Of a stretch of 38,074 nucleotides of DNA, positions 4,299 to 32,425 are shown piece after piece. A program made the translations under genes and the position numbers. The notes beneath the pieces are model-generated. The model was given only the letters and a program-made list of their open reading frames with translations. It was not told the origin of the DNA and made no database searches. The DNA comes from Alphaproteobacteria bacterium (GTDB lineage: Bacteria > Pseudomonadota > Alphaproteobacteria > UBA9219), in assembly GCA_028716765.1 (NCBI GenBank), contig JAQUPC010000004.1:1-38074 (forward strand), read 5' to 3'. The stretch's first letter is position 1; each line of letters opens with the position of its first letter.

Positions 4299-4760
4299 AT
4301 GCCATACTACGAGTGCGTCTTTATTGCGCGCCAGGATATCCCGGCGAACCAGGTTGAAACTCTGGCGAACACCTTTGCGGACATCATCCGCAAGGACGGC
4401 GGCCAGGTCACCAAAACCGAACAGTGGGGTCTGCGCAACCTCGCCTACCGCATCAACAAGAACAAAAAAGGCCATTACGTGCTTTTCAATCTCGACGCGC
4501 CGCCTGCGGCCATAGCCGAGATGGAGCGCAACATGCGCATTCACGAAGACATCCTGCGCTACATGACCGTCAAGGTGGACGAGCTGGAAGCCGGCCCATC
4601 GGCCATCCTGCGCCGCGACGAACGCGCCGAGCGCGAAGAAGGCGGCCGGGGCGATTTCGGCGACAGGGGCCGTGACCGTGGCGACAGGGGCGACCGCCCT
4701 CACCGCGCGCCGCGCCGCGAAGCCGCGCCAAGCGAAGACGTTGCCGTAACGGTTGAATAA
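4299..4760 (+). CDS. rpsF: 30S ribosomal protein S6
   Basis: S6 binds the central domain of 16S rRNA together with S18. The 153-residue product starts MPYYECVFIARQD, the family's usual N-terminus. The ATG at 4299 is preferred over the in-frame GTG at 4290 for that reason and because GAAGGGAG lies upstream. Residues 1-95 hold the ferredoxin-like fold, including QWGLRNLAYRI and KGHYVLFN. From about residue 100 there is a low-complexity Arg/Gly/Asp/Glu tail (RGDRGDRP), common in alphaproteobacterial S6. First gene of the rpsF-rpsR-DUF2232-rplI operon, all on the plus strand with short gaps. Confidence 0.97.
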   Translation: MPYYECVFIARQDIPANQVETLANTFADIIRKDGGQVTKTEQWGLRNLAYRINKNKKGHYVLFNLDAPPAAIAEMERNMRIHEDILRYMTVKVDELEAGPSAILRRDERAEREEGGRGDFGDRGRDRGDRGDRPHRAPRREAAPSEDVAVTVE

Positions 4761-4808
4761 CCCGCAAAACGGCCACAACAACGATTTTTTAATTCAAGGA
4801 GACCCATC

Positions 4809-5123
4809 ATGAGACCGACATCTTCCTCTTCATCCTCATCTTCCTCCGGCGGCCAGCGCCGCAGCGGCGGCATGGGTGGCGGCATGGGCGGCGGCCGTTT
4901 CTTCGGGCGCAGGAAATCGTGCCCTTTCGCCGGACCGCACGCGCCCAAAATCGACTATAAGGACGTGCGCCTTTTGGGCCGGTTCATTTCGGAGCGCGGC
5001 AAAATCGTGCCTTCGCGCATTTCCGGGGTTTCCGCGAAAAAGCAGCGTCTTTTGCAACTGGCCATCAAGCGCGCGCGTTTTCTGGCGCTTTTGCCTTACG
5101 TCAACGAAAAGGCAGGCGCCTGA
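4809..5123 (+). CDS. rpsR: 30S ribosomal protein S18
   Basis: S18 pairs with S6 on the platform of the small subunit. The 104-residue product has the conserved core from about residue 30: [28 protein letters not shown], and [23 protein letters not shown], broken here into its recognisable parts. The N-terminus carries an unusual run of nine serines followed by a Gly/Met-rich stretch, which adds about 20 residues to the usual 75-85. The start at 4809 is supported by AAGGAGACCC just upstream. Lies 48 bases after rpsF. Confidence 0.96.
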
Positions 5124-10994: not shown

Positions 10995-13900
10995 ATGGCA
11001 GATAATTCAAATTCTTCTGGCACTCCTGTCCGCACACTTATGCCGCCGCAAGGCAGTACGAAAACTCAGGGTTCTCCATCGCCCAAACCGCAGGCAGCCG
11101 CTGGCGCCGCTCAGGGCGCCGCAAGGCCGCAAATGCAAAGACCGCCCGTAAGACAGGCAACGGTTAAAAAATCCGCCAATTTTTCGAGCATGCCCTTTTG
11201 GATGGGCCTTGCCCTTTCCGTTCTGTGGATCGGCGTTGTGGGTATCGCGCTTACGGGTTCAGGGACGGCGCAAACGTTCGCGGGCCTGCCGCTTGCGAAC
11301 TGGGCTATCGGCATTTCCGCCGTCGCCTCGCCGGTAGCTTTAATCTGGATGGTCACGGCCTATCTGCAACGGGCGGCCGACGTCCAATCGATCGCCGAGC
11401 CCTTGCGCCGCCAGCTTATGATGATCACGGGTGAATCGGGCGCCGCCGAAGTCCGCATCCGCCGCTTCAACCAATCGCTCCGCGAGCAGATCGAACTTTT
11501 GCGCGGCACGCAGACCTTCAGCCAGAACGATCTTGTCGCCATTATGGATCGCGTCCGCCAGCACAAGAACGATCTGGAGCAATTCGAGCAGCACAGCGTC
11601 TATCAGGTTAAGGAAATTCAGGAAGTCATCCGCCGCAGCATGCAGCACATCGAACAGCTGCTTGAGGATAAATTCACCATGCTGCGCATTCTGGACAGCA
11701 AGCTGGTCCAAAGCGGCGACGAAGTCGCGCGGCAAACGGAAACGGTGCGCGACCAGATGACGTCAATGTTGCAGGAAATCGAAGCCAACGCGCATCTGGT
11801 CAGCCTTTCGCTGGAACGCGCGTCACGCGACGGCAAAAAGCTCGCCGATACGGCCCACGCGCAAGAAGCCAGCCTTGTCAGCGCCACGGAGACGGCCTCC
11901 AGTTCCTTGCAGGAATTGTCCGGCAAGATCGACCTTACGATCGCCCATTTCCTCGAACGCGTCGGCACGGCGCGCGACGAAGCCGAACGTTTGGGCGGCA
12001 CGCTGGAAACCCAGACGCGCATGCTCGACGAAGTCAGCAACACCCTTCCCGCGCGCATCAACGAGACGGAAGCCCTGCTTCGCGGCGTTACCGACCGCCT
12101 GTTCGCGAGCGAACAGATGGCGCGCCAGCAAGCCGTGCAGCTCGGCGAACATCTGGATGCCCAATCCCAAGGACTTGAGCAAATTCTCAACCGCTTCACG
12201 GCCCGCCTCAACGACGTCGACGGCCATCTGCAGCAACGCCGCAGCGATCTGGACGGCCTCGTCGTGCGCATCAGCGGCGCCACGGACGACCTCGCCCAGA
12301 AACTCGACAGCAGCATCACCGGTTTGGGCGAACGGACCCAGGAAAGCCTGCGGCAATTCACCATCGTCAACGATGAAGCCCGCCGCGGCGCCGACGACGT
12401 TGCCTCCCACATGGCCGAGACGACGGCCCGTTACGAATCGGTCATTCGCCAGCTCAACGGTCTTGCCGAAGGCAACAGCACGCATGTGCGCGCCATGACC
12501 GAAGAAATGGGCGCGCAGCTGGTCCGCTTCGAGGCCTTGAACAACGCCTCGCAGCAAGCCGGACAGGAAGTCCAGGCCCGCGCCGGCGTTGCCTTGCAAA
12601 ATCTCCAGCATGTTCTGGAGCGCTTGCTTGCGGCCCGCGACGCGACGCAAACCGTCGGCGAGACTCTGACGAACAACCTCCGCTCGGCTGTCCAGCAGAA
12701 CGACAACATCATCACGCGCATCAACGAAGCCGCCCAGATGACGTTGCACGCTTTGGGCGCGGCCTCGGATTCGCTGATCCGCAAGGAAGGCGACATCGCC
12801 ACCCAAAGTCATGCCGCCGAATCCGCCCTGCGCACGACCATCGGCCAGCTGGAAGAAAAGGCCCGGACAGCCGAACAATCGCTGCGCGAGCAGAACGCCA
12901 GTCTGGTGAATTTGATGAAGGAAACGCAGGAACGGCTCGACGGCGCCGATCTGCGCCTTCAGGACTTTGCCGCGCGCGCCGCCCTGCCCGTTCATCAGGC
13001 CATGCAGCAGATCGAGCAAAGCACCAATCAGGGCACGGACACGCTGGAACGCTACAGCGGCAAGATGATGGATCATCTCGGCCGCTTGCAGCAGTTGAAC
13101 ACGCGCGTGGGCGATGTGGGCGAAGAGACGAGCCGCATGACCACCGACACGCTGAACGCCCTCGAGCAGTTCAACAACCGCTTCCTCACCGTGCGCGCCG
13201 CGCAGGAGGAAACGGCCCGCAGCACGCTGGAACAATTCTCCACGATGGCCGAACGCCTGCAGCGCGAAGTCGGCGTTTTGGGCGATCACACCACGAAAGC
13301 CGTGGACACGCTTCATCAGGCCGCCGCGCAGGTGGGCCAGCAATCGCAGGATTTGCTCCGCGAAGCCCAGGATTCCGGCTCCAAGATTCAGGTCGTCACT
13401 TCCGCCCTCCAGAACGAAGCGGCGCAAATCCGCGCCACGCTGCAAAAGCAGGCGGACGACCTCAACAACGACCTTTCGCGCGCCGAACGCCAGTTTATGT
13501 CGATCGGGGAATCGCTGAAGCAGCGCACCGACGCCGCCTACGCCCTCCTCGACCGCATGGCCGCGCACTACAACGACACGACCCGCGGCGTGACGGATGA
13601 GTTCGAAGAGCGGGCCACGAAGCTCGGCCAGACGGCTTCCTCGGCGCACGACAAGGTCGGCGCGCTTAGTTCCGCCATCGCGCAGCAAGCCAGCCTGATC
13701 GGCAACAATGCCGTCCAGATGGAATCGCAGGCCACACAGCTTGTCAGCACCGGCGCCAAAACGCTTCAACAGCTGAGCACGCTCAACGAAAAACTTTCGC
13801 TGACCCAAGAAGCGACGGCCAGCGGCGCGCAACAGGTCATTTCGCGCCTCGAAGAAACCAACAGCGCCTTCCTCCGCCAGAACAACAGCCTGAGCGAATC

Positions 13901-16900
13901 CGCGCAGAACGCCGTCATGATGATCCAGAAGGCGGGCGCGGCCTATGGCGAGCAGGCAAGCAAGATGCTCGACACCACCCATCAGGTCGAACAGAGCATC
14001 CGCGGCCTCAACGCCGCCACCACGGCCTTTGCGGATCAAACGACGCAAATCCGCTCGGCGATGGAACAGCACAACCAGCGCCTTGTCACCAGCCTCAACG
14101 AGTCCGTGGGCCAGCTGGACGGCGCCAGCCTCAAGATGCAGCAAGCGACGTCGCACGCCGCGCAAGGCGTCGAAAGCGCCGCGACGCGCTTCAGCGAAAT
14201 CACGAAGGACGCCTCGGGACACCTCGACGGCAGCAGCGAGAAGCTTCTGGACATCGCGGGCAAGGCGGAATCCACGTTGAGCGCGCTCGGCGCCAGCATC
14301 ACGCAACAGGTCGCCTCGCTCAATCTGGTCAGCGAGCAGATGGACGAGCAACACCGCGCCATGACCGCCGCGAACGAAAGCCAGCGCACGCAATTGCTCG
14401 ACCTGTTCGAAAAGCTTGGGTCCGCCCACGGCCAGGCTTCCGACGTGGCCGAACGCACCATTGCGCGCTTGACGGATTCCCTCCAGCAAATCCACCGCCA
14501 GCTTGGCGCCTTGAGCGATCAGTCGCAAACGGCCCTCGCCGACATCCGCACCACCGGCTCCGGCTTCGCCGATCAGGCGACGCTTTTGTTCCAGAACGCC
14601 CAACAGGCCGAACAGCAGGCGCGGACCATTCTGTCCGTCACCTCCGCGCTGCAGGATCAGGCGCGTCAGCTTCGCGAAGCCTTGCACGCCGAAGGCGAGC
14701 GCACCGGCGATCTTCTGGGCGGCATTCTCGGCAAGCTCGGCTCGGGCAATTCGGAGCTCCGCGAACTCACGTCGACGGCGGAGATCACGCTCACCAGCCT
14801 GCATCAGGGCGTCACGAACCAGACGACGGCGCTCAACGGGGTCATGCAGCAGATTACGGACCGGCAGCGCAGCCTGACCACGTCGCTGGACGCGCAGCGC
14901 GACGTGTTGAACGGGCTTTTGAACCGCATGTCGCTGGCGCAGGACGAAACGGCTTCCGTGGCCGAGCGCAACGCGGCGAAAATAACCGACAGCTCCCGCC
15001 TCATCACCACGCACATGGAAGAGATGGACACGCAGGCGCAAAGCACCCTGACCAGCGTCCAGAACGCCAGCGCAAGCTTCATTAGCGAAGCCGATACGCT
15101 CGGCCGCCATGCCGAACAGGCCGAACAGCTTACGCGCCTTCTGTCCGCGAGCACCTCGACGCTTCAGGATCAGGCACGGCAGGTCCGCGAGACGATGCAG
15201 ACCGAAAGCGAACAGCTTAGCGATATGCTTGGCACCATGCTCAGCAAACTGGGCTCCAGCAACGTCGCGCTGCAAGACCTGAGCTCAACGACAGGCACAA
15301 GGCTGACGGACCTGCAGGGCACCATCGACGCCCAAACGACGGCGCTCAACGGCATGATGCAGCAGATCGGCGAGCGGCAACGCGACCTGACTTCGACTTT
15401 GGAGACCCAGCGCGAGACGATGGGCGGCCTGATCAACCGCCTGAGCCTTGCGCAGGACGAGATCGCCTCGACGGCTGAGCGCAACACGAACCGCCTGTCC
15501 GAAAGCGCGCAACAGATCGCGCGCCAGATCGAGGTTATCGACGCGCAGGCCCAGAACACTCTGGCCTCCGTGCGCGCCGCCGGGGCCGGCTTTGCCGACG
15601 AAGCGGGCTCGCTCAACGTCCATGCCCAGCAAACCGAGCAGCAGACACGCGGCCTTCTCTCCGTTACGGCGGGAATGGAAGAGCAAGCGAGGCAGTTGCG
15701 CGAATCCATGCAAAACGAGTCGGCGCGCGTGATCGAGCATCTGACTTCGGTCATCTCCCAGCTCGACGTCACCAGCCAGCAGCTCAGGCAGCAGAGCGGC
15801 AACATGGTGAACAGCCTGGATCAGTCCGTGCTTCAAATCACGACGCTTGCCAACACCACGGACGAAGCGCTGAAAAAGCACGCCATAAGCGTTACCGATA
15901 TCGCCGAAAAAGCCGAAGGCCGCGTTCTTGAGGCCGGCGAAAAAATCCGCACCCACTTCAAGGTTGTGGCCGACGCCGGCGAGCAAGCCGACCAGCAGGC
16001 CAAGCAGTTGGCGGACACGGCCGAACACGCCAATTCGCGCCTCGCCGCGCTGCGCAAGACGATGGCCGACAGCGATCAGGACGGCCGCAACATTCTGGTG
16101 CAGGCCAGCACGCGGATCGACGACATCAAAGCCACGCTGCAGCGCGAGTTGCAACAGGTCGCCGAAATATCGCAGCTGGCCGTCCAGCAGGTTACGGCGG
16201 CGGGTCAGGTCTTGATAACGCACAGCGACTCGCTGCGCGCCAACCTTTCCTCCTCCGAATCCGCCCTCACACAGGCCGCCGATCTCGTTCGCGAGGAAAC
16301 GGTCCAGATTCCGGCCGTCCTCGACCGCAGCACGGCGCATATCGACGCCACCCGCAAGACGTTCGAGGCGCAGGCGGACGAAGTCAACAAGACGATGGTC
16401 CAGACGACCGACCGCTTCATCAGCGTCACGGGCGCCGCCCGCGACACGATGATGGAGGAAATGCGCAATCTCGGCACAGTGGCCAACACCGCCGACGAAA
16501 CCTTGCGCCAGTTCAATCAGGCGCTTGTCGAACAGCTTGAGGCCATCAAGAAAGGCTCGACGGAACTCTCCACCGAGCAGTCTGTCCTCGTCGACAAGAC
16601 GGCCCAGACCATCGCCCAGCTCACGTCCGCCAGCGATCGGCTCGCGCAGGTTCGCACCAGCGCCCTCCAGACGACGGAAAAACTGGCGCGCGAGTTTGAA
16701 TCGATCGAAACGATGGCGACCTCGACCACCCAGCGCCTCGCTCAGGCGGGCGAAGGGCTCGGCAAGCAGGTAACCCAGCTGGCTCAGGTCGCGGAACGCG
16801 CCGAAGGCCAGATGACGGGCGCCAGCCAAGGCCTCCGCGAACAGCTGGAGCGCATCCGTTCCGGCGTTCAGATGCAGATCGACGACATCAACCGCGGCCT

Positions 16901-17624
16901 TATGCAGATCACCGCGCAGCTGGAGCGCACCGGAAACACCCTGCGCTCGGCCACGGCCGGGGCCGTTTCGGACGTCGAAAAGATCACGACGCGCCTCGAC
17001 CAGACCAGCAAGGACACGTCGCACCAGCTTACCGACCGCACGGCGCGCATGCGCGTCGCCACCGAAGAAGTGGCGAAGCTGTTGGGCGGATTCGGCGACC
17101 AGATGGACGTGCTGCTTAACCGCCTCTCGACGGCAGGCGACGGCATCAAGCGCCAGGAAAGCGACCTGATCGGCCGCTTGCAGTCGGCGCTGTCGCACCT
17201 CGGCTCGATCACCGAAAAGCTCGAGACCAACCGCATGCTGACGGCGGACGTCGCGGACGAAGCCGTATCGCGCCTCTCGGGCGTATCCGCGGCGGTGGAA
17301 AAGCAGTTGCATGAACTTAAGCAAGGCTCCGACAACGTGTCCGGCATCATCAAGGGCATGGGCCAGCTTTACGGAGATCAGACCCAGGGCATGAACCGGA
17401 ACCTCGCCGATACGCAGAGCCAAATTCTTTCCATGAACAAGTCCGTGGAGGAGATGCAGCAACGCACCGACCGCATGCGCGTCGCGCTTAAGCTGCAAGG
17501 CGACGATCTCATGAACACGCTGGAGCAAATCCTGCATCAGCTGTCGACGACGGGCGATATCTTCGGCGACGTCATCCAGACGGCTGAGCAAAAAGCGGCT
17601 GAAGGCGGCCAGAAGCTGAGCTAG
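10995..17624 (+). CDS. Giant membrane-anchored coiled-coil protein, GPR/RgsE/TipN-like polarity scaffold
   Basis: The 2209-residue product has a Pro/Gln-rich cytoplasmic start (residues 1-60), two membrane segments at about 67-87 and 101-122, and then about 2080 residues of continuous helical coiled coil rich in Gln, Ala, Ser, Thr and Leu. I find no Cys anywhere, and Trp only around the membrane segments. Size and layout match the growth pole ring protein of Agrobacterium (about 2100 residues, apolipoprotein A1/A4/E-like) and its Sinorhizobium relative RgsE, which organise polar growth; Caulobacter TipN has a similar two-helix anchor plus coiled coil. Homology is inferred from architecture, not alignment. 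A unit of about 171 residues is repeated in tandem around residues 1143-1570. Starts at 10995 after GAGGCG; the next gene follows after 29 bases. Confidence 0.8.
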   Translation: MADNSNSSGTPVRTLMPPQGSTKTQGSPSPKPQAAAGAAQGAARPQMQRPPVRQATVKKSANFSSMPFWMGLALSVLWIGVVGIALTGSGTAQTFAGLPLANWAIGISAVASPVALIWMVTAYLQRAADVQSIAEPLRRQLMMITGESGAAEVRIRRFNQSLREQIELLRGTQTFSQNDLVAIMDRVRQHKNDLEQFEQHSVYQVKEIQEVIRRSMQHIEQLLEDKFTMLRILDSKLVQSGDEVARQTETVRDQMTSMLQEIEANAHLVSLSLERASRDGKKLADTAHAQEASLVSATETASSSLQELSGKIDLTIAHFLERVGTARDEAERLGGTLETQTRMLDEVSNTLPARINETEALLRGVTDRLFASEQMARQQAVQLGEHLDAQSQGLEQILNRFTARLNDVDGHLQQRRSDLDGLVVRISGATDDLAQKLDSSITGLGERTQESLRQFTIVNDEARRGADDVASHMAETTARYESVIRQLNGLAEGNSTHVRAMTEEMGAQLVRFEALNNASQQAGQEVQARAGVALQNLQHVLERLLAARDATQTVGETLTNNLRSAVQQNDNIITRINEAAQMTLHALGAASDSLIRKEGDIATQSHAAESALRTTIGQLEEKARTAEQSLREQNASLVNLMKETQERLDGADLRLQDFAARAALPVHQAMQQIEQSTNQGTDTLERYSGKMMDHLGRLQQLNTRVGDVGEETSRMTTDTLNALEQFNNRFLTVRAAQEETARSTLEQFSTMAERLQREVGVLGDHTTKAVDTLHQAAAQVGQQSQDLLREAQDSGSKIQVVTSALQNEAAQIRATLQKQADDLNNDLSRAERQFMSIGESLKQRTDAAYALLDRMAAHYNDTTRGVTDEFEERATKLGQTASSAHDKVGALSSAIAQQASLIGNNAVQMESQATQLVSTGAKTLQQLSTLNEKLSLTQEATASGAQQVISRLEETNSAFLRQNNSLSESAQNAVMMIQKAGAAYGEQASKMLDTTHQVEQSIRGLNAATTAFADQTTQIRSAMEQHNQRLVTSLNESVGQLDGASLKMQQATSHAAQGVESAATRFSEITKDASGHLDGSSEKLLDIAGKAESTLSALGASITQQVASLNLVSEQMDEQHRAMTAANESQRTQLLDLFEKLGSAHGQASDVAERTIARLTDSLQQIHRQLGALSDQSQTALADIRTTGSGFADQATLLFQNAQQAEQQARTILSVTSALQDQARQLREALHAEGERTGDLLGGILGKLGSGNSELRELTSTAEITLTSLHQGVTNQTTALNGVMQQITDRQRSLTTSLDAQRDVLNGLLNRMSLAQDETASVAERNAAKITDSSRLITTHMEEMDTQAQSTLTSVQNASASFISEADTLGRHAEQAEQLTRLLSASTSTLQDQARQVRETMQTESEQLSDMLGTMLSKLGSSNVALQDLSSTTGTRLTDLQGTIDAQTTALNGMMQQIGERQRDLTSTLETQRETMGGLINRLSLAQDEIASTAERNTNRLSESAQQIARQIEVIDAQAQNTLASVRAAGAGFADEAGSLNVHAQQTEQQTRGLLSVTAGMEEQARQLRESMQNESARVIEHLTSVISQLDVTSQQLRQQSGNMVNSLDQSVLQITTLANTTDEALKKHAISVTDIAEKAEGRVLEAGEKIRTHFKVVADAGEQADQQAKQLADTAEHANSRLAALRKTMADSDQDGRNILVQASTRIDDIKATLQRELQQVAEISQLAVQQVTAAGQVLITHSDSLRANLSSSESALTQAADLVREETVQIPAVLDRSTAHIDATRKTFEAQADEVNKTMVQTTDRFISVTGAARDTMMEEMRNLGTVANTADETLRQFNQALVEQLEAIKKGSTELSTEQSVLVDKTAQTIAQLTSASDRLAQVRTSALQTTEKLAREFESIETMATSTTQRLAQAGEGLGKQVTQLAQVAERAEGQMTGASQGLREQLERIRSGVQMQIDDINRGLMQITAQLERTGNTLRSATAGAVSDVEKITTRLDQTSKDTSHQLTDRTARMRVATEEVAKLLGGFGDQMDVLLNRLSTAGDGIKRQESDLIGRLQSALSHLGSITEKLETNRMLTADVADEAVSRLSGVSAAVEKQLHELKQGSDNVSGIIKGMGQLYGDQTQGMNRNLADTQSQILSMNKSVEEMQQRTDRMRVALKLQGDDLMNTLEQILHQLSTTGDIFGDVIQTAEQKAAEGGQKLS
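14421..15720 (+). repeat. Tandem repeats of about 513 bases inside the giant coiled-coil gene
   Basis: The motif SLAQDE-x-AS-x-AERN is encoded at 14931 and 15444, with a weaker version at 14421. A QARQ-[LV]-RE motif recurs at 14652, 15165 and 15678. Spacing is 510-513 bases (170-171 residues). Between the two best copies most of the unit aligns, including QTTALNG-x-MQQI and LGS-x-N. The third copy fades out after the QARQ motif. The repeat keeps frame and coiled-coil register. Confidence 0.85.
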
Positions 17625-27814: not shown

Positions 27815-28525
27815 ATGGTCAATCCATTCACACCCGCTTCCGTCACCGGAACCCGCGCAGGCGTTACCTTCGATGCCGGGCTTCGCGCGCACATGATCCG
27901 CATCTTTAACTACATGGCGGGGGGTCTTGCGATTACGGGCCTTGTCGCCTTCATCGTGGCCAACACCGCACTGGCCGGAGTCGTATTCGGTACGCCATTG
28001 AAGTGGGTAGCGATTTTCGCGCCGCTCGTCTTCGTGATCTACATGAACGTCAAAATGCAAAGCATGAGCGCCGCAAAGGCTCAGACGCTGTTTTGGCTGT
28101 TCTGCGGCACAATGGGCCTGTCGATGGCGGCTCTGTTCATGGTGTTTACGGGCGCCAGCGTCGCGCGGGCCTTTTTCATCACCGCCGCCTCCTTTGGCGC
28201 AATGAGCCTTTGGGGCTACACCACCAAAACCGACCTGACAGGGTTCGGCTCGTTCCTGCTTATGGGCCTCGTCGGCCTGATGATCGCGATGGTGGTCAAC
28301 ATCTTTTTGGCCTCGTCCGGACTTCAATGGATCGTTTCCGTGCTGGGCGTGCTGATATTCACCGGCCTCACGGCCTATGACGTTCAGCGCATCAAACAGA
28401 CGTATGCGGCGGGATGGGGCACCGAAGCCAACAACAAAATGGCCGTTGTCGGGGCGCTGGGGCTTTACCTGAACTTCATCAACGCCTTCCAGTTCATCCT
28501 GAGCCTGACCGGCGACAGGCGGTAA
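27815..28525 (+). CDS. Bax inhibitor-1/YccA family membrane protein
   Basis: The 236-residue product has seven hydrophobic segments and the family's late signature region: LTAYDVQRIKQTY, with the Asp implicated in pH-dependent ion leak in BsYetJ-type members. The last helix reads ALGLYLNFINAFQFIL, typical of bacterial BI-1 proteins (YbhL, YccA). Members act in the inner membrane as calcium-leak channels or as modulators of FtsH; which applies here is unknown. The start is the ATG at 27815, with ATGAGGCTGA upstream; the frame to 27764 is unlikely. A strong terminator follows. Confidence 0.92.
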   Translation: MVNPFTPASVTGTRAGVTFDAGLRAHMIRIFNYMAGGLAITGLVAFIVANTALAGVVFGTPLKWVAIFAPLVFVIYMNVKMQSMSAAKAQTLFWLFCGTMGLSMAALFMVFTGASVARAFFITAASFGAMSLWGYTTKTDLTGFGSFLLMGLVGLMIAMVVNIFLASSGLQWIVSVLGVLIFTGLTAYDVQRIKQTYAAGWGTEANNKMAVVGALGLYLNFINAFQFILSLTGDRR

Positions 28526-28550
28526 ACGCCTTCGATAAACCGCTTAAAAG

Positions 28551-28582
28551 CGCCGCGATGGCTGGCCGTCGCGGCGTTTTTT
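28551..28582 (+). terminator. Rho-independent terminator after the BI-1 gene
   Basis: CGCCGCGA (28551-28558) pairs exactly with TCGCGGCG (28569-28576) around a ten-base loop and is followed by six T. It separates the BI-1 gene from the Cys-rich precursor gene, so the latter needs its own promoter. Confidence 0.92.
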
Positions 28583-28678
28583 ATGCCTATTAACCAAACA
28601 TAGCCTTTGCCTCGCGTGTACAAAGTTGATATTTTTGGACGCTCATTATTGCGTAAATCTGATAAATGGAGACATAAA

Positions 28679-29152
28679 ATGGCGACCGGTTCGCAAGGCA
28701 CCTTACGGATTGCCCCCGCTAAACTGCACGCACTTGCTGCAATGAGCGAAATCCTCCTCCGGGGAGGAATGAGAGCGCCCGGCAATCTGGATCAAGGTAA
28801 GGCACCGCTCTATGCACACACGACTTGCGGCGGTGGTTGCGATGGCGATTGTGACAGCACGTGTTGGTCCACTTCAGCTCAAGACCGTAAAGACTATTCC
28901 GATTCCGGTTGTTGGGAATGCGATGGCTCTTGCTCCGGTGGCTGTGGCGGCCACTGCTCCAATAATTGTCAAGGCGGCTGCGACAGCAGTTGTGGCGGAA
29001 ATTGCCAAGGAGATGGCTGCCATTCGAGCTGCGCGGGATCTTCGAGCAGCGGCAATGATCGTCGCGGGTTTCAGGAAAGCCCCACAAGGACGCCCGCAGC
29101 AGCCTTCGTTTTAAAGCGCGGCGCGCGACCGGCTGAGAGATTACGCCTCTGA
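28679..29152 (+). CDS. Cys-rich CXXX-repeat peptide, putative RiPP precursor
   Basis: The 157-residue product starts at 28679 with TGGAGA seven bases upstream. Residues 1-47 are a Cys-free, partly helical leader (KLHALAAMSEILLRGG). Fifteen cysteines follow at 50, 54, 58, 62, then 78, 81, 85, 89, 93, 97, 101, 105, 109, 114, 118: two blocks in nearly perfect C-x3-C register, with spacers made of Gly, Ser, Asp, Asn and Gln. A 39-residue Cys-free tail ends the protein. C-x3-C ladders beside radical SAM/SPASM genes are the hallmark of the CXXX-repeat peptides described in other phyla. The SPASM gene follows 100 bases downstream on the same strand. No signal peptide. A metal-binding protein is the main alternative. 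Cys codons are both TGC and TGT, so the ladder is not one simple DNA repeat. Confidence 0.8.
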   Translation: MATGSQGTLRIAPAKLHALAAMSEILLRGGMRAPGNLDQGKAPLYAHTTCGGGCDGDCDSTCWSTSAQDRKDYSDSGCWECDGSCSGGCGGHCSNNCQGGCDSSCGGNCQGDGCHSSCAGSSSSGNDRRGFQESPTRTPAAAFVLKRGARPAERLRL

Positions 29153-29252
29153 TATTTTTTTGCGGCATATTTTTTCAAGTATTTATAAGCGCCTGCGTTT
29201 TTTTCGCAGCATGGTTGGTGCGCAGTCTATTTATTTTTTATGGGGAATAATG

Positions 29253-30449
29253 ATGCCACGAGATACCAACGGAATTTCTGAAACGCTTTCTTTGACTATT
29301 ACGGAACGCTGTAATCTTTCATGCGTCTATTGCTACGAACACGCCAAAGACGCCGCCGTCATGTCCTACGATGTCGCCTTTTCAGCTATCGAGGCGGCCT
29401 TCCGGCGGAACCCGGGGAGGGATCTTTATATCAGCTTCCACGGCGGGGAACCGCTTCTTGTTTTTCCCCAAATCCAGCACATATGCGAGACGGTGTGGGC
29501 TCAACCTCAACCCCTGCCCCGGCCTCATAGATTTTATTTGGCGACAAACGGGACGCTGGCGCATGGTGAAATCCAGAAATGGTCGTCTGCTAATAAGCAC
29601 AGGTTCTCCTTGTGCCTCAGCCTCGACGGCACGCGGGAGATGCATAATCTAAACAGGAGCAATTCATTCGACGCGATAGACTTGGGCTTTTTCAAAGAAA
29701 CCTGGCCTGACCAGCCTGTTAAGATGACAATATCTCCGCAAACTCTTCCATCTCTGGCAGAGGGCGTTATTTTCATGCAGGGCCTGGGGTTTGAGGTTAG
29801 CGGTGGGTTGGCTCAAGGCATCGCATGGCCAAAAGAATCCTTCGCTCTGTATGAAAGGGAGATGAGGGAACTTTGCGACCACCATCTCCAAAATCCGGGA
29901 GAGCAGCTTTCCCAACTCCTGTCCATGCCGCTCGACAAATTTACGCCTTACGCCCGGGAACAAGGACGCAGATGGTGCGGGGCAGGAAAACATATGACCT
30001 GTGTCGACCAAAAGGGAGAGGACTATGCTTGCCATATGTTCATGCCTTCGGTTCAGGAAACGTTAGAAAACCAAAAGAATAAAGAAAACACTCAAAGGCT
30101 GTTGCGAGACGCCGCGGAAGAAATCGTTCATCCTGTTTGCGAAAAGTGCGTCATCACGAGCGCATGTCAGACATGCTACGGCTCGAACTTTGTGGCGCGC
30201 GGCGATTTAGCCGATAACGGGAAGGATAATTGCACCTTCAATCTGATACGGGCAAAAGCAACCGCTTATCTGTACGCGGAAATGTTGACGGATCGTGACC
30301 GTTATCCTCTCGTCAAAAACATGGCCGATGAGGGTGTTTATCGCGTCATTCACGCCATTCAGGCCATCACGGAAGCCATTCCCGATGACGCTCTTGCCCG
30401 CCGCATTGAAGGCTCTCCATCTTCAGCGAAGTATTCTCTGGGGCTGTAG
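29253..30449 (+). CDS. Radical SAM/SPASM peptide maturase
   Basis: The 398-residue product carries the radical SAM cluster motif C20-x3-C24-x2-C27 (ERCNLSCVYCYE), the SAM-binding HGGEP at 63-67, and a barrel strand YLATNGT. A C-terminal SPASM domain has cysteines 242, 250, 260, 296, 299, 305, 308 and 327, enough for two auxiliary Fe-S clusters. Such enzymes install thioether, C-C or related links in ribosomal peptides; the precursor just upstream is the obvious substrate. The ATG at 29253 is preferred (GGGGA six bases upstream); 29250 is also an ATG, and the frame back to 29160 starts with an unlikely TTG. There is no protease, exporter or separate recognition-domain gene beside it. Its codons are more A/T-rich than those of the flanking housekeeping genes, which hints at transfer. 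Confidence 0.93.
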   Translation: MPRDTNGISETLSLTITERCNLSCVYCYEHAKDAAVMSYDVAFSAIEAAFRRNPGRDLYISFHGGEPLLVFPQIQHICETVWAQPQPLPRPHRFYLATNGTLAHGEIQKWSSANKHRFSLCLSLDGTREMHNLNRSNSFDAIDLGFFKETWPDQPVKMTISPQTLPSLAEGVIFMQGLGFEVSGGLAQGIAWPKESFALYEREMRELCDHHLQNPGEQLSQLLSMPLDKFTPYAREQGRRWCGAGKHMTCVDQKGEDYACHMFMPSVQETLENQKNKENTQRLLRDAAEEIVHPVCEKCVITSACQTCYGSNFVARGDLADNGKDNCTFNLIRAKATAYLYAEMLTDRDRYPLVKNMADEGVYRVIHAIQAITEAIPDDALARRIEGSPSSAKYSLGL

Positions 30450-30473
30450 TTAGCAGGGCTAACCCCGTCAACA

Positions 30474-31085
30474 TCACGCCACCACCCTGTGCTTGACCTT
30501 TTCAAGCATCGGAAGATCGTTAGGCGCGTTGCCGTAGCCCCAACTGTCGTCGAACGGGCCATGCGTCAGCAGATAGTCCGCGACTCTTTCGGCCTTGCGC
30601 GCGCGCACGCAATTGCCGGACGCCATCCGCCCCGTCACCACGCCGTCTTTGATCTCCATGTCCGTGCACAGCACCGCATGATGTGGAACCTTGCGTAACA
30701 GGGCGGGAAGATAAAGGCTCAGACTGCCCGAAGCGATCACGATATGGTTCCCCCTGTCGTGATGTTCTCTCAGCGCATTCATGACGAGGCCTCGCTCGCG
30801 GGGCCAGCCCAGCATTTTTTCGACCGCCGGAGCCAATTCTTCCATGCGCTTTCCCGCCAAGAGCCGTTGCAGCAATCGTTCCTTGACGTAAGTGCGGTGA
30901 TCGCCGCCATTGGCCAATGCCCAAATCAGCCCGACAATCGCCTCGGACAAGGCGATACAGGCCCGGGGCCATCCCGCCACGGCGACGAGAAAAGGCCATA
31001 AGCTGTCGCCCTTAACGAGCGTATCGTCGTAATCGAAGAACACGACCGTCCGCTTGCCGGGTGCCGGATCTATCGGCTCTTTCAC
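30474..31085 (-). CDS. HAD-superfamily IB phosphatase, SerB-like
   Basis: About 203 residues with the HAD motifs in order: nucleophile motif FFDYDDTLVKGDS, motif II in HIVIASGSLSLYL, a conserved Lys near CVRARKAERV, and motif IV in GYGNAPNDLPML. This is the HAD-IB layout of phosphoserine phosphatases and related lipid or small-molecule phosphatases; the Asp-Tyr-Asp-Asp nucleophile loop is slightly unusual against the common DFDGT. The GTG at 31085 overlaps the hemY stop by GTGA, which I take as the start; an ATG at 31100 is the alternative. It ends the minus-strand heme cluster and converges with the SPASM gene, 24 bases apart. The substrate cannot be named. Confidence 0.85.
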   Translation of the reverse strand: MKEPIDPAPGKRTVVFFDYDDTLVKGDSLWPFLVAVAGWPRACIALSEAIVGLIWALANGGDHRTYVKERLLQRLLAGKRMEELAPAVEKMLGWPRERGLVMNALREHHDRGNHIVIASGSLSLYLPALLRKVPHHAVLCTDMEIKDGVVTGRMASGNCVRARKAERVADYLLTHGPFDDSWGYGNAPNDLPMLEKVKHRVVA

Positions 31086-32425
31086 GCGACCGGTTCCCAT
31101 GCTCCGGCGATCAAGGCGGCTTTGCCGCCGTTCCGGCCGACACCGGGCGTCTGCCACTCGAGGCTGTTAAACGCCCCGCAATGGGCGCACAGAACCTGCC
31201 AGTCGTCATGGCCGCCGCCGCAGGCCGTGCAGAGCCAGCGGGGATCGGGAAGAGCCTCCGCGGCTTTCATAAGCCACTGGGCAGCGGCTCGTTCGTCGCC
31301 GGATTCCCGGCGCTCCAGCTTTGCAAGCAAACGGTAGGCTTTCTGCGTGGCCTGTCCCTGCGCGATGATCGCCATCAGATGCCTTCGAGCCTCTCCCCAC
31401 AAGTCAGCGGCGATGGCCGTTTCCGCAAGAGCAAGGCGGCTCGCAGGATCCTCCGGATTGGTGCGCGTCAAATGCGCCATGAGCTTGTGCGCGTTTAAGG
31501 GGCTCCCGCTGCGCCCTGCCCTCAGATAGAGGTCCGCCAGATGCGGATGAGGCTTGTTCCTCCAGGCTCTTTCGATCGTGCGCAGCGCGGTCCGGAAATG
31601 CCTGGCTTCCAGCTGCCTTTGCGCCAGCGTCAGCAACGCAGGGACCCAGTCGGGCGCTTGCTTCACGGCCTTCTCCGCGCTCTGCAACGCTCGGTCCGCC
31701 TGCCCCTGTTGCGTTTCGGCTACCGATGCCGCCACCAGCAAGGCTGCCTGATGGCGCCGCGCGCGCGGCGCTTCGAGCAACCGCGCCGAGGCCGCTTGCG
31801 CCAACGCCGCGCTGGCATCACTCCAATTTTGGCGGCGGGTAGCCAGATCGAAACGGATCAGATTCAGCCACGGCGTATTCGGCTTCAGGCGGCGCAGATT
31901 GCCCATCTGGCGCTCGGCTTCGTCCCAATCGCCATCACGGACTGCGGCCATGATAAGCCCGCGGTATCCAAGCACGGCGCTTTCAGGCTCCGCCGCCATA
32001 GCGCGGAAAATCTCTTTGGACGCGCGGTGATCGCCGGCCAATTGCGCCGCCTGCGCCTGCAAAAGCCTTGTCGCGGGCGTGACGCCCAATAAACGGCGCG
32101 CGCTGACCGCAAGCCTTCCGGCTTCCGCCGCGTTGCCTCCCGCGATGGCGGAAAGGCCTTGCGTAAGCAGCGCTTGCCCTCTTTGAATTTTGTTGAGCCT
32201 GTTATTCAAGCGCCAGATGCGCGGCCCCTCGGTAATAAAGCTCCAGAAACGATAGAGAAGATAAAAAACGAACGCCGCGCCGAGAAGGACGACGGCCAGA
32301 AACGCCGCGGACGTTTCTATCTGGTAACCGTGCCAAACGACGCGGGCCGTCCCCGGTTGAACCACCAGCCAGACCACGACGCCGACAATGATCGCCAGCC
32401 GGACAAGAAAGCCGAGCAACCGCAT
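31082..32425 (-). CDS. hemY: HemY-type TPR membrane protein
   Basis: The 447-residue product starts with two membrane segments (residues about 4-24 and 38-60) and the family's conserved early region, GPRIWRLNNRLNKIQRGQALLTQG in parts, followed by tetratricopeptide repeats through about residue 380. The C-terminus has a Cys4 zinc-ribbon (WLCTACGGG, then LCAHCG), frequent in alphaproteobacterial versions. HemY proteins are encoded in heme clusters and thought to organise late steps of tetrapyrrole synthesis; E. coli HemY is not protoporphyrinogen oxidase. The start overlaps the mic60 stop by one base (TAATG), so translation is coupled. Confidence 0.93.
   Translation of the reverse strand: MRLLGFLVRLAIIVGVVVWLVVQPGTARVVWHGYQIETSAAFLAVVLLGAAFVFYLLYRFWSFITEGPRIWRLNNRLNKIQRGQALLTQGLSAIAGGNAAEAGRLAVSARRLLGVTPATRLLQAQAAQLAGDHRASKEIFRAMAAEPESAVLGYRGLIMAAVRDGDWDEAERQMGNLRRLKPNTPWLNLIRFDLATRRQNWSDASAALAQAASARLLEAPRARRHQAALLVAASVAETQQGQADRALQSAEKAVKQAPDWVPALLTLAQRQLEARHFRTALRTIERAWRNKPHPHLADLYLRAGRSGSPLNAHKLMAHLTRTNPEDPASRLALAETAIAADLWGEARRHLMAIIAQGQATQKAYRLLAKLERRESGDERAAAQWLMKAAEALPDPRWLCTACGGGHDDWQVLCAHCGAFNSLEWQTPGVGRNGGKAALIAGAWEPVA

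Follow-up and report, generated by a model that had tools for sequence, protein, structure and literature searches.

Is a Cys-repeat peptide gene next to a radical SAM/SPASM enzyme gene a minimal ranthipeptide-like cassette in a probable alphaproteobacterium?

What is made by two adjoining genes, one for a peptide with Cys at nearly every fourth residue and one for a radical S-adenosylmethionine (SAM) enzyme with a SPASM region, in a contig filed under the Alphaproteobacteria (JAQUPC010000004.1, assembly GCA_028716765.1)? Both lie on the + strand of the window, the whole stretch of 38,074 nucleotides analysed here, between an upstream terminator hairpin (28546-28581) and a convergent gene (30474-31157). 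The cassette is a real pair, very probably of precursor and maturase, which recurs in distant bacteria and comes from a clade that is unnamed in the profile library; in fold and profile it is nearest to ranthipeptide maturases. Beyond this, we infer that the two genes are probably a minimal ranthipeptide-like cassette for a ribosomally synthesised and post-translationally modified peptide (RiPP), in which the peptide is the substrate and the chemistry is the formation of serial Cys thioethers. The features of the locus are as follows.

28679..29152, + strand: putative Cys-rich precursor peptide gene, 157 amino acids (translation, Cys spacing test)
28668..28672, + strand: GGAGA ribosome-binding-like site, ending 6 bases 5' of the ATG (read from the sequence)
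28679..28825, + strand: Cys-free, leader-like part, residues 1-49, with a presumed leader role (the first Cys is residue 50)
28826..29032, + strand: Cys repeat core, residues 50-118, in units of mostly C-x-[G/S/N]-x (Cys spacing, unit count)
29033..29149, + strand: Cys-free C-terminal tail, residues 119-157 (translation)
29250..30449, + strand: predicted radical SAM/SPASM peptide maturase, 399 amino acids (NCBIfam and Pfam scans, AlphaFold model, PDB matches, trees)
29310..29333, + strand: CNLSCVYC radical SAM cluster motif, C21-x3-C25-x2-C28 (the three Cys each at least 90% conserved in a 120-row alignment)
29439..29453, + strand: HGGEP motif, residues 64-68 (GGE invariant in the 120 rows)
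29976..30233, + strand: SPASM region with seven invariant Cys, 243, 261, 297, 300, 306, 309 and 328 (120-row alignment)
28546..28581, + strand: intrinsic-terminator-like hairpin after a BI-1-family gene (RNA fold)

A preliminary description of this DNA had reported a peptide of 157 residues with 15 Cys, mostly at every fourth position, and both the translation and a spacing test bear this out. All of the Cys fall within residues 50-118, at spacings of 4, 4, 4, 16, 3, 4, 4, 4, 4, 4, 4, 4, 5 and 4. Pairs of Cys at i/i+4 number 11 against 2.8 expected, a value reached by 0 of 100,000 shuffles of the 72-residue core, and translation of the other two forward frames over the gene gives 1 and 4 Cys and meets 3 and 7 stops. 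The middle residue of the repeat unit is Gly in 7/11 units in the window and in 14/22 at other loci (counting both paralogues at one of these, L013), and the unit common to all these peptides is C-x-Gly/Ser-x.

The complete radical SAM enzyme reported about 100 bases downstream is also there, separated from the peptide gene by 97 bases (29153-29249) and carrying both its CX3CX2C and HGGEP motifs. Translation may start at the ATG at 29250 or at a second ATG at 29253, which is better spaced from a GGGGA. One detail needs correction: the eight SPASM cysteines of the preliminary description become seven in the alignment of the window enzyme with 119 relatives, and C251 is unconserved in a 15-row alignment. 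The radical SAM core and the C-terminal SPASM Cys set that mark SPASM peptide maturases are both present. In an AlphaFold model with a predicted local distance difference test score (pLDDT) of 93.6, the first strand begins at residue 11. The nearest solved fold in PDB comparisons, the second of which covered residues 2-334 of the enzyme, is CteB, a ranthipeptide maturase, which has a Cys at all seven places aligned with the SPASM Cys; from this common set, a CteB-like geometry of the auxiliary clusters is plausible. An N-terminal RiPP recognition element (RRE) domain occurs in many SPASM peptide maturases, though not in all. None was seen in the window enzyme, given the early first strand and an alignment with CteB that starts only at CteB residue 90. 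A C-terminal extension ending in GL is common to the window enzyme and the three relatives nearest to it, which are about 50% identical (C-termini of P0002, P0004, P0005 and P0006); most of the 11 remaining sequences in the smaller alignment lack it.

Profile searches with both proteins, a check proposed in the preliminary description, gave a divided result: the enzyme matches SPASM-type profiles at scores under their cut-offs, and the peptide matches no CXXX-repeat family. The best-scoring named profile for the enzyme is PapB (NF047865), at 149.1 bits against a cut-off of 340; lower scores are given by TIGR04115 (110.8 bits, cut-off 350), the QhpD/PeaB profile TIGR03906 (94.6 bits, cut-off 453) and the SCIFF maturase profile TIGR03974 (77.4 bits, cut-off 425). 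For the peptide, neither NCBIfam nor Pfam yields a family at E<=1, the CXXX targets TIGR04114 (cut-off 20 bits) and TIGR04117 (50 bits) included. In the second of two trees, which adds five rows to the first and excludes the long rows L067 and L088, a clade that holds the window enzyme and those of eight other non-redundant loci takes up 28 of the 40 rows (100/96). This clade is separate from the TIGR04115 and SCIFF/NlpM/PeaB groups; its nearest group varies with the root, and neither tree places the window enzyme among the TIGR04115 rows. A sister kinship to TIGR04115, suggested by the first tree, was withdrawn when the midpoint root moved in the second and TIGR04115 joined NlpM/SCIFF/PeaB. 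The trees contain no authentic PapB. A search for PapB at E<=1e-95 found it in 0/398 genomes but also in 0/14 control genomes, and is no sign of its absence.

Profile searches for clade enzymes, made in genome sets that overlap one another, returned 3/348 genomes in the phylum of G001 (E<=1e-70), 1/148 in the family of G001 and 3/391 in its class, 1/45 in the family of G347 and 3/82 in its class (E<=1e-55), and 1/1 in the class of G020; a search of genome contigs with a single protein gave one locus. By these counts the enzyme is rare in the groups searched. One plasmid and one scaffold filed as phage (L103) were joined to the set, which, after merging L098 with L099 and L001 with L009, comprises eight loci besides the window. 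A short same-strand open reading frame (ORF) with a Cys-bearing tail adjoins the enzyme at 8/8 of them. The peptide is NACGGCSGDCKGAGC (49 amino acids) at L001, CPCGGSCAGECTGTC at L012, GCSCGGSCYLVCRNSC at L098/L099, CKGTCRGTCGGSC at L103 and CGGSNCKSKCGGTC at L105. In the case of L013, two 118-residue paralogues stand by the enzyme, one of which scores 25.1 bits against TIGR04117 (cut-off 50), while L002 has a 47-residue ORF with three Cys, next to an M18 aminopeptidase gene, and L106 a 57-residue ORF with two. Enzyme homologues lacking any nearby Cys-rich peptide, which the preliminary description had named as telling against the pair, were therefore not seen outright at the eight loci, but L002 and L106 come close to that situation and count as weak support, because chance alone may produce a small ORF with two or three Cys.

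Further genes at L103 encode another enzyme of the clade, a Clp-protease-family protein and an ABC transporter. The record itself (MT836223, 1-11793) is filed as 'Bacteriophage sp.' and carries SusD and TonB-plug genes around its two-enzyme cassette; judged by its gene content, the DNA looks like Bacteroidota. This transporter is the only one among 19 flanking proteins from the eight loci (Pfam; the flanks are incomplete), and the minimal make-up of the window pair, singled out in the preliminary description, is accordingly nothing special within the clade. Genes adjoining three cassettes (L107 6071-7030, L108 3563-4369, L110 6578-8353) encode a protein kinase domain, an APH/RIO-type phosphotransferase and a weakly Hsp70-like protein (20.0 bits, just under the cut-off).

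Several observations weigh against a ranthipeptide-like cassette. SPASM enzymes with similar cores make other types of link too, and among the best 25 of 71 NCBIfam matches the window enzyme lies under every cut-off; kinship specifically to the CXXX-repeat maturases is not established by the trees. A strict rule for the partner (at least 4 successive Cys spaced 2-6 apart, in an ORF of at most 200 amino acids on the same strand and within 1 kb) is passed by 6/8 clade loci, with L002 and L106 failing, and also by 17/76 viral-contig loci of other radical SAM enzymes. For this control 80 loci were taken from at least that many matches on viral contigs, none above 30% identity, and 4 were dropped because no usable enzyme ORF was present; it includes several near copies, some of its passes are themselves CXXX-type partners, and a few of its loci serve as tree rows. 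The PapB acceptor motif CX3D/E occurs at 1/15 Cys of the peptide. A protein search at E<=1 scored 75 candidates and recovered the window's own peptide only, and a promoter search of 28450-30560 gave nothing sigma-70-like. The last two results would also suit a Cys-rich frame that is untranslated or unrelated to the enzyme, standing beside it by accident. This we consider very improbable in view of the 157 open codons behind a GGAGA 6 bases from the ATG, the strict Cys periodicity and the like arrangement across the clade.

Returning to the ranthipeptide-like cassette, the enzyme would be expected to act on the peptide with residues 1-49 as leader and residues 50-118 as core. It would cleave SAM at its CX3CX2C cluster and then abstract a hydrogen from a residue close to a Cys; the carbon radical left behind would bond to the sulphur of that Cys, which an auxiliary cluster would hold in place, and each link would lower the mass by 2 Da. 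Repeated linking would produce a chain of thioether staples along the core. Kinship and fold make such a ladder plausible; the thioether nature of the links, their acceptor residues and their number are predictions. Published excerpts on related enzymes offer two models for the acceptor. CteB is described with a Thr acceptor (PMC10352776), and PapB links Cys to the beta-carbon of Asp in CX3D motifs, with the substrate thiol bound to an auxiliary cluster (PMC10470005, PMC9413430) and with other Cys-Asp separations tolerated (PMC9413430). A Thr-only acceptor is unlikely here because Ser or Thr ends 14/22 units at other loci but 4/11 in the window. Serial Cys thioethers with non-canonical acceptors are instead expected, because the SPASM set is CteB-like yet only one Cys is followed by an acidic residue at +4.

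Gly, Ser, Asn, Asp and Thr make up most of the residues next to the peptide's Cys, which would also suit a RiPP cassette whose links are sactionines (Cys to alpha-carbon), as in sactipeptides; in ranthipeptides the sulphur is bound to a beta- or gamma-carbon. SPASM enzymes such as SkfB are known from an excerpt of PMC6231123 to make these links, and we hold such an outcome to be unlikely here. A product without Cys cross-links has also been considered, in which the enzyme alters the peptide in another manner (e.g., C-C links or epimerisation) and the free thiols bind metal or buffer redox, like a modified metallothionein. The 15 Cys and 9 Asp of the 72-residue core are in keeping with this, and a Pfam scan of 30 window ORFs recognised no exporter family, so the product may remain intracellular. 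The CteB-like seven-Cys set and fold speak against it, as do the ABC transporter and Clp-protease-family gene at L103, and we judge it distinctly unlikely.

How does the thioether cassette compare with systems already known? Like the window, the TIGR04115 CXXX-repeat system has a SPASM maturase adjoining a Cys-x-x-x repeat peptide, and the peptides at L027 and L042 have units similar to those of the window peptide; it differs in that the window enzyme is under the cut-off and outside the group, and the peptide fits neither TIGR04114 nor TIGR04117. PapB and its freyrasin precursor are likewise encoded by adjacent genes (PMC10470005, excerpt), but the window peptide lacks serial CX3D/E and the enzyme misses the NF047865 cut-off. 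CteB (TIGR03974; PDB 5wgg/5why) resembles the window enzyme in fold and SPASM Cys; the window enzyme, in contrast, begins at the barrel and scores under the TIGR03974 cut-off. QhpD/PeaB, the quinohemoprotein amine dehydrogenase maturase, is also a SPASM enzyme and is found in Alphaproteobacteria (L101), but it stands outside the clade in both trees and its gene sits among enzyme-subunit genes. In a radical SAM map (PMC9062424, excerpt), cluster 59 has three genes; a single radical SAM enzyme is among them, as is a peptide in which an Asp-Cys motif recurs up to six times. The window core has Asp-Cys once (CDGDC), and the likeness is one of gene make-up. Against this background the idea of a candidate new RiPP system holds in part: a precursor/maturase pair is very probably what was found, but its standing as a new system is not supported, since PapA/PapB pairs are published (PMC10470005, excerpt) and CXXX-repeat systems are named in NCBIfam.

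Other Cys-rich neighbours of radical SAM enzymes were seen along the way. At L026 (3748-4434) and L104 (1920-2444), runs of 29 and 31 Cys in CXXX-like units lie beside SPASM enzymes; the TIGR04115 cut-off is cleared by L027, a near copy of L026, and in the tree the L104 enzyme joins the TIGR04115 group. The L104 peptide begins, by eye, with a Tat-like RREFF segment. At L010 (973-1122), from the same rumen genome as L001, GECQTSCQSACKTSC, which is SCIFF-like, is encoded upstream of another radical SAM enzyme, the second in that genome. On viral contigs, ORFs of about 190 amino acids ending in CTCTCTC runs, with Cys at every second residue, stand by radical SAM enzymes at L061 and L067-L070 (about 4400-4980), several of them near copies. 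L088 (1915-2311) has two small proteins in which Cys recurs at roughly every third residue; the radical SAM enzyme downstream of them shows this pattern in its own N-terminus.

The surroundings of the window pair agree with the preliminary description, which had placed it between a terminator and a convergent gene. The upstream hairpin runs into a U stretch and folds at -27.1 kcal/mol (z -4.97; 0/200 shuffles equally stable), and it is absent from the output of a simple terminator scan. A second hairpin between the two genes (CTGCG-T7-CGCAG) was rejected, as 191/200 shuffles of 29140-29255 fold at least equally well. The convergent gene is HAD-like by Pfam. An Rfam scan at gathering scores gave no match, a tRNA scan none, and no tandem DNA repeat was found at 28600-29250. 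The other window genes named by Pfam are chromosomal housekeeping genes: ribosomal S6 and L9, hemC, hemD, HemY_N, formamidopyrimidine-DNA glycosylase, OMP decarboxylase, PRA isomerase, BI-1, MscS-type and DUF2336. A search with the window's HemC lends indirect support to an alphaproteobacterial host: among its 120 best hits, 13 carry an organism name, 8 of them from Alphaproteobacteria or a group within it (Arenibaculum, Rhodospirillaceae and Hyphomicrobiales belong here), 4 from Proteobacteria/Pseudomonadota with no class given and 1 from Bdellovibrionales, and the top hit after the window's own is 82% identical. An uncultured alphaproteobacterium is thus the probable host. The two genes of the pair have a third-position G+C of 0.54 and 0.57, lower than the 0.62-0.81 of ten further window genes, which is at most suggestive of horizontal transfer. 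Elsewhere in the window, a 2209-residue open frame (10995-17624) with a third-position G+C of 0.805 faces long open frames on the opposite strand, and Pfam gives no above-cut-off match for it.

A more far-reaching picture is possible, though doubtful: an unnamed SPASM clade lacking an N-terminal RRE may travel from phylum to phylum in two-gene cassettes whose peptides have 2-15 Cys, its window member placing about a dozen serial thioethers on C-x-Gly-x units without the CX3D rule and so forming a long stapled rod, perhaps intracellular or at the cell surface. None of six CXXX-repeat maturase names was found in the open-licence literature searched; because they stand in the profile library and in none of these papers, the chemistry of these maturases may well be open. 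As a compact test case, the window cassette offers one enzyme and one presumed substrate of 15 Cys, while peptides from elsewhere in the clade, down to the 2-Cys one of L106, might be used as minimal substrates. The cassette could show which residues accept sulphur where PapB's rule fails, and it extends the clade to a probable alphaproteobacterium.
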